Positions 60,300-64,000 of a stretch of DNA of 64,000 nt are shown one piece after another. Source of the stretch: Aquabacterium sp. Its GTDB lineage: Bacteria; Pseudomonadota; Gammaproteobacteria; Burkholderiales; Burkholderiaceae_C. A model generated the notes under the pieces. It was not told where the DNA came from. It was given only the letters and a program-made list of their open reading frames with translations, and did no database searches. The first letter of the stretch is position 1. Each line of letters opens with the position of its first letter. The translations under genes were made by a program, and so were the position numbers. The stretch spans positions 1 to 64,000 of the forward strand of contig NZ_JACRAH010000005.1 of assembly GCF_016234775.1 (NCBI RefSeq), in the 5' to 3' direction.

Positions 60300-60308
60300 G
60301 AATGGGGT

Positions 60309-60353
60309 TGGTAGGCCGTGTTGGACTTGAACCAACGACCAAAGGATTATGAG
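60309..60353 (-). tRNA. 3' fragment of a CAU-anticodon tRNA (Met or Ile2), attachment-site remnant
   Basis: Read on the minus strand, the anticodon loop CTCATAA (60353-60347) is followed by the 3' anticodon strand TCCTT, a 5-base variable loop, a perfect T arm (GTTGG, TTCAAGT, CCAAC; 60336-60320), the 3' acceptor strand ACGGCCT (60319-60313), A and CCA (60311-60309). Upstream of the loop the sequence no longer fits: the expected AAGGA and the 5' acceptor AGGCCGT are absent. So only the 3' 45 bases remain. This is the standard scar (attL) left when an element integrates into the 3' end of a tRNA gene and restores the intact gene at its far end. Confidence 0.8.
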
Positions 60354-60507: not shown

Positions 60508-60948
60508 TCAAAGTGAATAGCTGGCACCATCTACGTCGAATCCGACCGATGACACCAGTGTAAGAGCGCCTGAAAACGCGTTCGGACCACCAAAGAACGG
60601 TCCATCAGGCTCACTGTGCAGAAAGAATGCCCCCTGAAGCACGCCACAGTGGATACAGACATTGCCCCAACTTGTCTCTCCAGCCATTCTTGAGAACGTT
60701 GGTTTGAAGTTTGTTGCCGTCTGCGCAACCACCGCAGTCACCTCCGCTGGAATGGCGTCCGGACTCAAGTCATAAACAAAGGTCGTTGCCTCCAACTTGA
60801 ATGGCTCCTCTCCGTCTACGAATTCCTCGACATCGGTTGCGACCAGAGCATGCACCGGCGTTACTGCATGGCATTTCCAGCATTCAGTTTCGGCGGAAGC
60901 TAACTTAATCGGCCCATGCAAACGAACAAACTCAGTTTCTTCATTCAT
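60508..60948 (-). CDS. small protein with two CxxC pairs, unknown function
   Basis: A 146-residue protein with CWKC at residues 23-26 and CIHC at 98-101, probably one zinc site. The centre is acidic (DVEEFVDGEEPFKLEATTFV). The start ATG at 60948 was preferred to a TTG six bases earlier. It lies 52 bases downstream of the DUF262 gene on the same strand and may be co-transcribed. I recognise no family; zinc-ribbon proteins of this size next to nuclease genes can be accessory or regulatory parts. Confidence 0.65.
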   Translation of the reverse strand: MNEETEFVRLHGPIKLASAETECWKCHAVTPVHALVATDVEEFVDGEEPFKLEATTFVYDLSPDAIPAEVTAVVAQTATNFKPTFSRMAGETSWGNVCIHCGVLQGAFFLHSEPDGPFFGGPNAFSGALTLVSSVGFDVDGASYSL

Positions 60949-60981: not shown

Positions 60982-61000
60982 AGATATTGCAAAAATATCT
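60982..61000. repeat. hairpin and TCTCACCC repeats after the DUF262 gene
   Basis: AGATATT (60982-60988) and AATATCT (60994-61000) form a perfect 7-base stem with a 5-base loop at the stop codon. TCTCACCC occurs three times in the neighbouring 50 bases (from about 60955, 60973 and 60998). There is no T-tract, so termination is uncertain. Confidence 0.3.
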
Positions 61001-62556
61001 CACCCCTTTATTCCAGTATTGCAGTATGGATGTACCATTTGCGCATTGGAAACACTTCCGTTACCCCCACTACTCTTCTTCTTGATGTGATCATAAGAAA
61101 CAGACTTAGCAGGATGCAGGTAGCCCTGACATATATTGCACTTCAATGCAGAACCCAATGCATTTTGAACAAAAACAAGCGACTTAGTATCATCAGAAAA
61201 ATTAATTGACGCCTGCGCCGAATTCACACTCAACACTCGCCCTCTCAAGCCCAGAATACCAATTGCTTCCTCAATTGTTGGCATAGCCCCTTTTGAACCA
61301 GACTCGACCAGCAAACCGAACAAATCCTTCATCTTTGGAACCCGCTGAGCCTTACTTAAGTTTTGCAGAACAAAACCAATTAGAGATTTATTCTCAACCA
61401 AAAACTCCTCAAACAGCTTGCGCGATTTTGTGAATTTCTTAAAAAATCCATCATCATTATTTCTTAGTGCCTGAACAATAAGCGCAATCATTCCCAAAAA
61501 CAAGAATCTATTGTACTTACCTCGTTCATTATAAAAATATATGACAGGGTGCAACCCAAGACTCCCAGGCGAGTTGCCAGTCACTCTATTCAGGACCTCT
61601 AAAGAGCGCACAAGTACGTCAATGGTGCTTTTGCCATCCAAGTCGTCAGAGTATCTCTCAATCGACATTGGAACCTGCTCACGACTTGCGGAGATTGTCA
61701 GAAAATCAATAAGCAAAGAAAGTGCGTCTACTGGCGAAACAGCTCCGCCAAACGGCACATCAAGAGTCTTTAATGGTAGCGTTGCCTCTGGCTCAAACAA
61801 AAGTTCATAGAATTTCCCAGCCAAACTCTCAACCTTGTTTCTATTTCTTTCTGAAAAAGCAGACCAGTATTTATGTCCTGTACCTGATCTAAGGATAGCT
61901 CTCGCAGCAATAGCAATCGGTTTACGCCTATTCTTGATCAACATTTCCTCAGTATCATCCAGGGGCGTCCCCTGAGAGTTGATCTTAAAAAATGACGTTT
62001 CCGCCACGTCGGCATTGCCTTGAATCCACTGAAGGTTTAATGCGCGAGTAACCAGCCTGTTTGCCCTTCGCTTTATTTGCGGATCATCGATATTTTTTAC
62101 ATCAACGATACCGCGCAAGTTCGCATAACGCCCGACCTTTTGCTCAATCAGTGTTCGAGCTCTTTTCGCAACACGCTTTTGGTCATCGGAAATTTCACCT
62201 CTATAAAATGCCGCTGACGCTGGCCCGTCACCATAGTCATCAAGAACCCAAGACCGCAGCGCACTTAACCGATGGCCACCATCAATAACAAATATGTACG
62301 TTGGTGACTTCCACAATATTAAAGAAGGGATAACTTCGTTATCCAAAAAACTTGCAATAAACGTTGCAACTTGCTCCGGGGACCATTGATTTGTTTCACG
62401 CTGAAAATCTGGCTTTCTCAATAGTTTTAATATGGGAGAATCGGACAACAGGTTAGCAATAGGAAAGTCACCGAAAAGATCTAGTACGAACTCCTCCTCC
62501 TCAACTGAGAAGTCTTCTCTAGGAATCATTGCATCTAGTGTTACTCTTTGAGCCAT
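61000..62556 (-). CDS. DUF262 and HNH-endonuclease domain protein, defence candidate
   Basis: A 518-residue protein with two recognisable ends. The N-terminal DUF262 (ParB/Srx-like NTPase or DNase) includes KPDFQRETNQWSPEQVATFI and the signature IDGGHRLSAL (DGGHR, 92-96). The C-terminus is an HNH nuclease with C473-x2-C476, D489-H490, a GG turn, N504 and H509-x2-C512. The region between (about 150-460) is helical. DUF262 plus HNH proteins (GmrSD and relatives) cut modified phage DNA. The frame is open up to 62748, but that part is GC-rich and unlike the gene. The ATG at 62556 has GAGAG just upstream. The gene is clearly AT-rich compared with its surroundings, a sign of transfer. Confidence 0.85.
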   Translation of the reverse strand: MAQRVTLDAMIPREDFSVEEEEFVLDLFGDFPIANLLSDSPILKLLRKPDFQRETNQWSPEQVATFIASFLDNEVIPSLILWKSPTYIFVIDGGHRLSALRSWVLDDYGDGPASAAFYRGEISDDQKRVAKRARTLIEQKVGRYANLRGIVDVKNIDDPQIKRRANRLVTRALNLQWIQGNADVAETSFFKINSQGTPLDDTEEMLIKNRRKPIAIAARAILRSGTGHKYWSAFSERNRNKVESLAGKFYELLFEPEATLPLKTLDVPFGGAVSPVDALSLLIDFLTISASREQVPMSIERYSDDLDGKSTIDVLVRSLEVLNRVTGNSPGSLGLHPVIYFYNERGKYNRFLFLGMIALIVQALRNNDDGFFKKFTKSRKLFEEFLVENKSLIGFVLQNLSKAQRVPKMKDLFGLLVESGSKGAMPTIEEAIGILGLRGRVLSVNSAQASINFSDDTKSLVFVQNALGSALKCNICQGYLHPAKSVSYDHIKKKSSGGNGSVSNAQMVHPYCNTGIKG

Positions 62557-62989: not shown

Positions 62990-64000
62990 ATGTCCGCATT
63001 TGATGACCGCCCTGGTGGCGGCAAAGCGTGTGGCGGTAGTGACGGCGACCGGGGATGCGCGGAGCGCGCACCGGGCGGCGGCGCTGGCGCCTCCCCCCGT
63101 ACAGTAACTACGGGGGGAAAGATTCGAGGCACGACCGACAACGCCCCGAAAGTCCTCAACGGTATTGATCCCGATACGGGTGAAAAGGTCGAGATCTACG
63201 CGTCCGGCAAGCACGGCCCAGAAGCTGTGCGCCTGATGGGTTCTAGACCTGAGTCCTCGCCCAAGCTGGCGCTTGTCGATGCGCTGGCTGTCTCCCTCAC
63301 CCCGCCCACGGAATACCTGCCTGAGTTGTGGGTGTCAGATCAACTGCGCCAGTTCATGCCCATCAACTCGCTGCAAGAGCGCAAGGGCTACTCAGGCTTC
63401 AAGCATTCCGCATCATGGGACAACGGCTCTGGCTTGATCGCCTGGGGTGGCAAGAGCCAACGTGGCCGCATGTACGTGAGCATCCAGGGCCAAGGCTGCG
63501 CCACAGTTCAAGACTGGGCAGGCCTGGCCCACTGGCTTGAACAGCGCATGGCCACGATCAAGCGTGTTGACCTGGCGCACGATGATTTCGCAGGCGAAAT
63601 CACCGACATCACATGGGCTGTCGAGCAATACAAAGCTGGCGGCTTCAATGCTGGCGGGCGTCAACCGGTTCACAACGTCTTTGGCGATTGGCTCTCAGGC
63701 GATGAGGCCACCGAGGGCCGCACCTTTGGCGTAGGCCGTCGAGCCAATGGCAAGTTCTGCCGTGTGTACGAAAAGGGCAAGCAGCAAGGCGACCCGCAAA
63801 GCGGCTGGGTGCGTGTTGAGGTGGAGTGGCGCGCTGAGCGGCGATACATCCCCTATGACGTGCTGACCAGGCCTGGCATCTACCTGGCTGGGGCCTACCC
63901 CTGCATGCACATCCTGTCGACCGAGCAGGAGCGCATACGCACCACGGCGAACGCTGCAACCATTACCTTTGAATCGGCCATGGAAAACGCCAGGCTTCAG
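62990..64000 (+). CDS. Rep_trans-type replication initiator (filamentous phage RstA-like), partial
   Basis: Open from ATG 62990 to the window end (337 residues visible, no stop). The Gly/Arg-rich N-terminus of about 50 residues is followed by the replication initiation factor domain. This includes LALVDALAVSLTP, YSGFKHSASWDNGSGLIAWG, the Asp-rich IKRVDLAHDDFAGE, GRTFGVGRRANGKFCRVYEK then GKQQGD, and VRVEVEWRAERRYIPYDVLT. These are the hallmarks of rolling-circle initiators of filamentous phages such as RstA of CTXphi and the Ralstonia RSM/RSS phages. The start has GAAGGAG five bases upstream. Its presence next to the tRNA scar points to an inovirus-type prophage. Confidence 0.8.
   Translation, partial: MSAFDDRPGGGKACGGSDGDRGCAERAPGGGAGASPRTVTTGGKIRGTTDNAPKVLNGIDPDTGEKVEIYASGKHGPEAVRLMGSRPESSPKLALVDALAVSLTPPTEYLPELWVSDQLRQFMPINSLQERKGYSGFKHSASWDNGSGLIAWGGKSQRGRMYVSIQGQGCATVQDWAGLAHWLEQRMATIKRVDLAHDDFAGEITDITWAVEQYKAGGFNAGGRQPVHNVFGDWLSGDEATEGRTFGVGRRANGKFCRVYEKGKQQGDPQSGWVRVEVEWRAERRYIPYDVLTRPGIYLAGAYPCMHILSTEQERIRTTANAATITFESAMENARLQ

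Follow-up and report, generated by a model that had tools for sequence, protein, structure and literature searches.

The window, as we call the whole stretch of 64,000 nucleotides of an Aquabacterium sp. contig that was analysed, carries near its right end a gene whose product joins a DUF262 domain to an HNH nuclease site. Which function does this protein have, and does it act alone? An earlier note had proposed the gene as phage-defence cargo of a tRNA-integrated element that might form a two-gene system with a small CxxC gene. The features of the element are the following.

60308 to 60353, no strand: att copy, a 46-bp exact repeat of the tRNA-Met 3′ end and left boundary of the element
60508 to 60948, minus strand: CxxC gene, 146 aa, 51 bases downstream of the DUF262-HNH gene
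61000 to 62556, minus strand: DUF262-HNH gene, 518 aa, with DGGHR at residues 92–96 and HNH at residues 473–513
62990 to 64000 and on to contig position 64210, plus strand: replication initiator (Rep), Rep_trans PF02486, phrog_453
Contig 64171 to 64596, beyond the window: excisionase-like HTH gene
Contig 64317 to 65471, beyond the window: ORF of a tyrosine-type integrase adjoining the tRNA gene, phrog_1 (E = 7.3e-63)
Contig 65484 to 65529, beyond the window: second repeat copy, equal to the 3′ end of tRNA-Met(CAT)
Contig 65485 to 65561, beyond the window: tRNA-Met(CAT)

The DUF262-HNH reading frame runs on the minus strand from an ATG at 62556 to a stop codon ending at 61000. The ORF list also included a longer GTG form of 582 aa; since homologues start at or near the ATG, the 518-aa form was taken. 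Pfam placed PF03235 GmrSD_N (DUF262) at residues 35–209 over the cut-off (E = 2e-15) and PF01844 HNH at residues 473–514 (E = 3.6e-4), where the score of 21.0 bits lies just below the cut-off of 21.4. A DUF1524/GmrD nuclease domain was absent from the Pfam results at E≤0.1, the HNH domain PF01844 being present instead. The HNH site is complete (C473, C476, D489, H490, N504, H509, C512 and N513). Moreover, the three DUF262 motifs of TgvAB and GmrSD, which are QR, a DGQQR-type motif and FxxxN (PMC11411939), have their counterparts in Q52-R53, D92-G-x-H-R96 and F189xxxN193. NCBIfam gave no match over the cut-off, and whole-length coverage was obtained with none of the Pfam, NCBIfam or PADLOC models. 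Among the PHROGs, phrog_29172 (‘unknown function’) matched residues 3–517 with profile positions 6–530 of 531 (E = 1.2e-169). Promoter and terminator scans gave about as many matches as shuffled sequences (4 versus 3.6 and 6 versus 5.5, respectively).

Scans for relatives of the protein yielded 95 loci, 19 viral and 76 from genomes. Locus counts given below refer to 96 loci, i.e. the 99 with a match after removal of L001 (the same place as L002, the window's own locus, which is included) and of L008 and L009 (copies of L007); near-duplicates such as L006/L049 were retained. Copies of 480–620 aa were regarded as intact, which applied to 76 including the window's own (75 distinct), while the other 20 were short, broken or ended by a contig edge. 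Alignment of the intact members displayed invariant residues D92, G93, H95 and R96, with G (42), A (22), S (11) or C (1) at position 94. According to this tally, the family motif is DG[GAS]HR and not the DGQQR of GmrS. Except for the variable position 94, the QR, DGxHR and FxxxN residues are each at least 97% conserved. C473, C476 and N504 are invariant in all 76 members, H490, H509, C512 and N513 are kept in 75 and D489 in 73. As every HNH residue is kept in at least 73 of 76 members, the HNH is not a chance motif. The description in the earlier note of a single 518-residue protein combining DUF262 (DGGHR) with a complete HNH was confirmed by PF03235, PF01844 and the conservation of these sites in the family.

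Two distinct phage proteins are full-length relatives, each present in two records: gp44 of the P2-like Burkholderia phage KL3 (46% identity) and a protein of the filamentous Pseudomonas phage Pf8 (40%). Other relatives reside on plasmids and chromosomes, with record titles naming Proteobacteria, Bacteroidetes, Acidobacteria, Planctomycetes, Cyanobacteria, Clostridia and others. Matches were found in 62 plasmid records, eight of them with at least 80% coverage. DUF262-HNH is a widespread full-length family with near-invariant sites. The Pf8 copy (L003:8523-10061, NC_073756.1) is annotated as ‘putative repressor C protein’ and aligns with DUF262-HNH over its full length, sharing its HNH; judged by its sequence, the ‘repressor C’ label is probably wrong. 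A search of open-licence PMC papers found no description of a DUF262-zinc-HNH family as a defence system; the KKP paper names DUF262 and HNH in the legend of a neighbourhood figure (PMC11341870).

An AlphaFold model of the window protein based on a 73-row alignment reached a mean pLDDT of 89.9 and a pTM of 0.84. Foldseek comparison with the PDB ranked BrxU (7p9k; E = 4.1e-3) and DndI (9jfl; E = 7.3e-3) on top, followed by ParB/Noc, with no match at E≤0.001 and TM-scores of 0.21–0.30 for the top two. Among viral models six passed 0.001, the best being a GmrSD N-terminal-domain protein (E = 8.8e-5). A PDB sequence search with the family profile led to six matches at E≤1 (best 0.0012), which were HNH parts or chance. 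Domains, conserved sites and fold matches support a defence-type relationship, as the earlier note had claimed.

The observed domains, conserved sites, predicted fold, distribution and context point to a stand-alone, DNA-sensing or DNA-targeting defence nuclease of the GmrSD/BrxU kind that travels as exchangeable cargo, a reading of the sequence that we regard as moderately probable. The N-terminal ParB/Srx-type DUF262 domain would bind and hydrolyse a nucleotide and would recognise some property of DNA entering the cell, with a modified base in phage DNA as the most likely one. Sensing would then switch on the C-terminal zinc HNH, which would nick or cut that DNA. Nuclease and NTPase activity, a sensing step and an anti-phage effect would be expected of such a protein, and both the CxxC neighbour and a phosphorothioate system would be dispensable. 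As exchangeable cargo, the gene would be carried by an element composed of integrase, excisionase and Rep, by filamentous and P2-like phages and by plasmids, and would be placed beside restriction-modification (R-M) genes. If this defence-nuclease reading applies, the trigger could be a modified cytosine, a prospect that we rate as reasonable but short of even. A trigger present on phage and not on host DNA, for instance a hypermodified cytosine, would fit best, since most copies are without a methyltransferase nearby and the host m5C methyltransferase is located elsewhere (the window's genome has one, on another contig). As this genome has its own m5C methyltransferase, a nuclease attacking any 5mC would be toxic.

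Alternatively, the protein may be an abortive-infection or toxin nuclease, in which DUF262 responds to a phage protein or to altered nucleotide pools and the HNH then damages host DNA. The two PADLOC matches with E<0.001, both partial, were to PD-T4-2_A and to NsnA, a Menshen protein, and HEC-05 followed at E = 0.034. In line with an abortive mechanism, Menshen, Dazbog and PD-T4-2 all contain DUF262 without DUF1524 (PMC10952713). However, the NsnA and PD-T4-2_A matches span residues 47–107 only, the zinc HNH resembles domains that cut DNA, and among the neighbour clusters, not all of which were named, none of an antitoxin or regulator type was conspicuous. We therefore consider abortive infection unlikely.

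A further possibility is an accessory of 5mC R-M systems that would cut unmethylated or escaping DNA under protection by a partner or host methyltransferase. Neighbour genes were called by a simple longest-ORF method. The nearest two ORFs of at least 100 aa per side comprised 115 downstream and 127 upstream proteins assigned to 112 and 167 Pfam families, respectively, most of which occurred in one or two proteins; many were housekeeping or mobile genes. Among the top 25 families, phage integrase (5 downstream, 4 upstream), DNA_methylase (4 and 3) and EcoRII-C (3 and 3) recurred on both sides, Bro-N (4) and Vsr (3) downstream, and Resolvase (3) and MethyltransfD12 (3) upstream. For the 96 loci, a profile search within 6 kb was positive for an m5C methyltransferase at 12, for Vsr at 8 and for EcoRII-C at 6. 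Where 6 kb were available on both sides (50 of 96 loci), the methyltransferase was found in 10. There is no fixed partner, the methyltransferases with their 12 loci forming the widest neighbour cluster. Among 185 whole genomes of the class, 9 contain EcoRII-C, and its six placements within 6 kb look far above chance, with the limits that defence genes cluster anyway and that the loci include other classes.

Both closest relatives (L024:624-11722 and L025:753-7405; 71% identity) adjoin a large m5C methyltransferase accompanied by HATPase-like and further large genes (named by eye), an arrangement that resembles a multi-gene R-M system. In phage KL3, gp44 directly follows the EcoRII M-Vsr-R set, and PMC3483164 describes the EcoRII-Vsr set of this phage as a self/non-self module. 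Mapped on a tree of 77 tips that lacks support values, the R-M label of 12 tips required seven Fitch changes, compared with a mean of 11.3 for shuffled labels and seven or fewer in none of 1000 shuffles. The R-M linkage is repeated on several branches, yet partly inherited. While the methyltransferases and EcoRII genes near the family, the context of the closest relatives, the methyltransferase elsewhere in the window's genome and the spread of R-M-linked members over several branches favour an R-M accessory, the 6-kb search for an m5C methyltransferase was negative for 84 of 96 loci, the set carries its own nuclease in all six EcoRII loci, and the clustering of the label beyond shuffles argues for an association partly due to shared descent. 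This role is improbable in our view.

For the same 84 of 96 loci and the nucleases of the EcoRII loci, a restriction subunit of an R-M system was judged unlikely. With so many loci negative for a methyltransferase within 6 kb and neighbours that are mostly singletons, the defence label draws on a minority of contexts and on homology. An effector of a phosphorothioate system is unlikely as well: DndC (TIGR03183) was absent from the window's genome and over the cut-off in one of 32 relatives' genomes, given for 32 of the 76 genome loci in a search limited to the DndC model.

Integration into a tRNA gene was borne out by the 46-bp repeat and by the tRNA-Met and integrase genes just past the window end. 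No tRNA was found within the 64-kb window, so that this part of the earlier note was inferred correctly from half of the evidence, tRNA and integrase lying outside. The repeat pair delimits an element of about 5.2 kb on a contig of 111,501 bases. Its four non-overlapping ORFs of at least 60 aa encode the CxxC protein, DUF262-HNH, Rep and the integrase, and the excisionase-like ORF overlaps. The Rep portion within the window matched phrog_453 with E = 1.3e-67. An inovirus-type Rep, a tyrosine integrase and a tRNA att repeat are features of filamentous-phage-type integrative elements. No coat or Zot gene was recognised among the element ORFs of at least 60 aa, and Pf8 Zot and coat A had no match in the window's own locus; 37 ORFs of 30–59 aa were outside the coat search, so that a small coat protein is possible. 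A satellite of a resident filamentous phage was not supported, as Zot had no match in the window's genome (94.7% complete) and one weak match in seven other carrier genomes. The left-flank and right-flank genes were searched in 42 genomes of the genus, the window's among them, and no tRNA lay at that position in any of the loci examined besides the own (5 left, 11 right); as no empty site was shown, the element call rests on the 46-bp repeat.

That the gene serves the element itself by superinfection exclusion, lysogeny control or homing and not host defence is very improbable: the ‘putative repressor C protein’ annotation of the Pf8 copy and its location at the end away from the integrase, which has a parallel in the integrase-distal position of the window gene, speak for it, but the Pf8 protein is related over its full length (40% identity) and keeps this HNH, family members are also located next to R-M genes, on plasmids and within a tailed phage, and an integrase-Rep element without DUF262-HNH exists (L133), though with a frameshifted integrase.

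A search of 399 genomes for relatives of the integrase (E≤1e-60) was positive in 26, the window's genome among them, with 30 places in total. From the 29 other places 18 were fetched, and a nineteenth region, L133, came from the Rep search. Eight of these 19 regions displayed a tRNA-linked repeat of 27–51 bp (L133, L244, L245, L246, L247, L249, L259 and L260), 17-bp tRNA-to-tRNA matches in L256 being left uncounted. The sibling elements are 2.8–7.7 kb in size. ORFs were listed for 8 of the other 11 regions, leaving out L248, L257 and L258. The regions contain the following.

L133: Rep_trans and an integrase in two frames, which is probably broken; no clear cargo
L244, L246 and L247: unknown genes, no PADLOC match
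L245: small unknown ORF only
L249: IS-like transposase pair (by eye); no Rep seen
L259:10832-12651: tRNA-Lys element with DUF262 (NsnA model, E = 2.4e-31) and an FRG gene (PDC-S15, E = 8.4e-56)
L260:9504-12463: Mrr-type nuclease adjoining a PtuA-like AAA ATPase
L256:10292-12138: retron RT (E = 2.1e-116) and NDT effector (E = 3.7e-76), type II-A models; right end beyond the contig

Defence-type cargo is present in three of the nine delimited elements, window included. The excisionase-like ORF was matched in L244–L247, not in L133, L249, L259 or L260. A G2P-type Rep (PF23343) is encoded in L244 and L245, and related Reps in L246 and L247. At the Rep position, L256, L259 and L260 have a different protein in common, of which the L259 copy had no Pfam or PHROG match; two of the three proteins are weakly similar to Pf8 Rep (E = 5e-4 and 5e-5), from which we infer a putative Rep. 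DUF262-HNH was found on none of 65 viral contigs with a Rep relative, indicating that its pairing with this Rep type is rare. Near a related integrase, L250:1266-8640 contains an ORF run that resembles CRISPR-associated genes by eye. A common chassis would consist of a related integrase and usually a filamentous-phage-type Rep or Rep-like gene, with no recognised coat genes. We tentatively suggest, as something possible and not yet probable, that minimal tRNA-integrating elements of this kind are a chassis for one exchangeable, often anti-phage cassette and that the window protein represents a new DUF262 effector architecture.

The earlier note had also argued from base composition. With a G+C content of 0.431, the DUF262-HNH gene lies below the CxxC gene (0.519) and window positions 1–60300 (0.627), so that the sharp difference from the chromosome was reproduced; as an argument for foreign DNA it is true yet general to the family, since among the 95 loci (window included) that offer at least 3 kb of flanking sequence, 90 have a gene lower in G+C than its flanks. 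The deficit exceeded 0.05 in 77 and 0.1 in 55 of these loci, and one gene surpassed its flanks by more than 0.05. Members of the DUF262-HNH family tend to be low in G+C.

The proposed two-gene system was not supported. The co-occurrence check across genomes was run, and no co-occurrence was found beyond the window: the CxxC protein was absent from all 95 fetched loci of DUF262-HNH relatives (at least 600 bases downstream were available in 81 of 96 loci), and no DUF262-HNH was found at E≤0.01 in the fetched 12–19 kb around four CxxC relatives (L130, L131, L132 and L211). The pair was consequently rejected as a system. The CxxC protein gave no Pfam, NCBIfam, PADLOC or PHROG match at E≤0.1 and none in phages at E≤0.01. 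It resembles the cysteine-rich part of DUF5710-containing proteins. Among 298 further genomes from the taxonomic family, three contained a relative (identities of 60%, 34% and, as a weak match, 26%), and one more was found on a viral contig (24%); the relative with 60% identity has Arg in place of the second Cys in its first CxxC. The relative L131:7632-8225 has an N-terminal extension resembling DUF5710 by eye. Plasmid matches comprised 22 records with 28–36% identity, 12 labelled DUF5710 and one competence protein CoiA family. The plasmid organism tallies of the two genes, with 22 of the 62 DUF262 records unlisted, had no genus name in common. The CxxC gene is probably an unrelated passenger.

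If DUF262-HNH is a nuclease that senses modification or infection, the DUF262 defence enzymes gain a widespread effector whose nuclease module differs from theirs and which the PADLOC 2023 models matched only in part. Furthermore, very small tRNA-integrated elements would be possible carriers of single defence cassettes, and the ‘repressor C’ label in the Pf phage record is called into question.

Small integrated elements comparable to the window element include RS1 and PICMI. Filamentous-phage accessory loci and satellites differ in that the window element has no recognised coat or Zot gene and no known helper. In filamentous phage genomes, studied as Vibrio prophages, 8.5% of the variable loci encode putatively complete defence systems (PMC11630473). 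The full-length relatives phrog_29172, KL3 gp44 and Pf8 ‘repressor C’ include proteins of full phages, namely KL3 and Pf8. A ParB-CTPase fold fused to PF01844 has been reported as a novel bacterial fusion (PNAS 2025, PMC12704722), a set that may include our family; the terms ‘GmrS’ and ‘PF03235’ do not appear in the main text of that paper. GmrSD-type ParB-HNH nucleases are described as BREX companions (PMC12839542), and ‘DUF262 domain-containing HNH endonuclease’ genes are reported from Acinetobacter BREX clusters (PMC10117892); the latter may be distant, since the Acinetobacter plasmid matches among those listed were 25–27% identical.

SspE and DndI share with the window protein a DUF262 domain and a C-terminal HNH-type nuclease, DndI being the second PDB fold match. 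In contrast, they pair with a phosphorothioation module, whereas the window genome is devoid of DndC, and DndI carries DUF1524 and DGQQR (PMC11662687). GmrSD, BrxU and TgvAB resemble the window protein in their N-terminal DUF262 with QR and FxxxN and in a single chain that ends in a His-Me/HNH-type nuclease. Like the window family, the GmrSD family is located near restriction genes and on mobile DNA, and BrxU was the top PDB fold match. The two families differ in DUF1524 and DGQQR on the one side, the latter nearly 100% conserved in GmrSD (PMC4619093), and a zinc-type HNH (PF01844) and DG[GAS]HR (one DGCHR) in 76 of 76 members on the other. The type IV restriction pairing named in the earlier note thus stands as a defence-type relationship through DUF262 and is otherwise a likeness, with DUF1524 undetected and DGQQR in none of the 76 members. 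In GmrSD, BrxU, SspE, DndI and TgvAB, the hydrolysis of a nucleotide is coupled to cleavage of DNA (PMC10952713, PMC11662687, PMC11411939). The window gene, likely a DNA-cutting phage-defence gene, is related to the known modification-sensing restriction enzymes and distinct from them.
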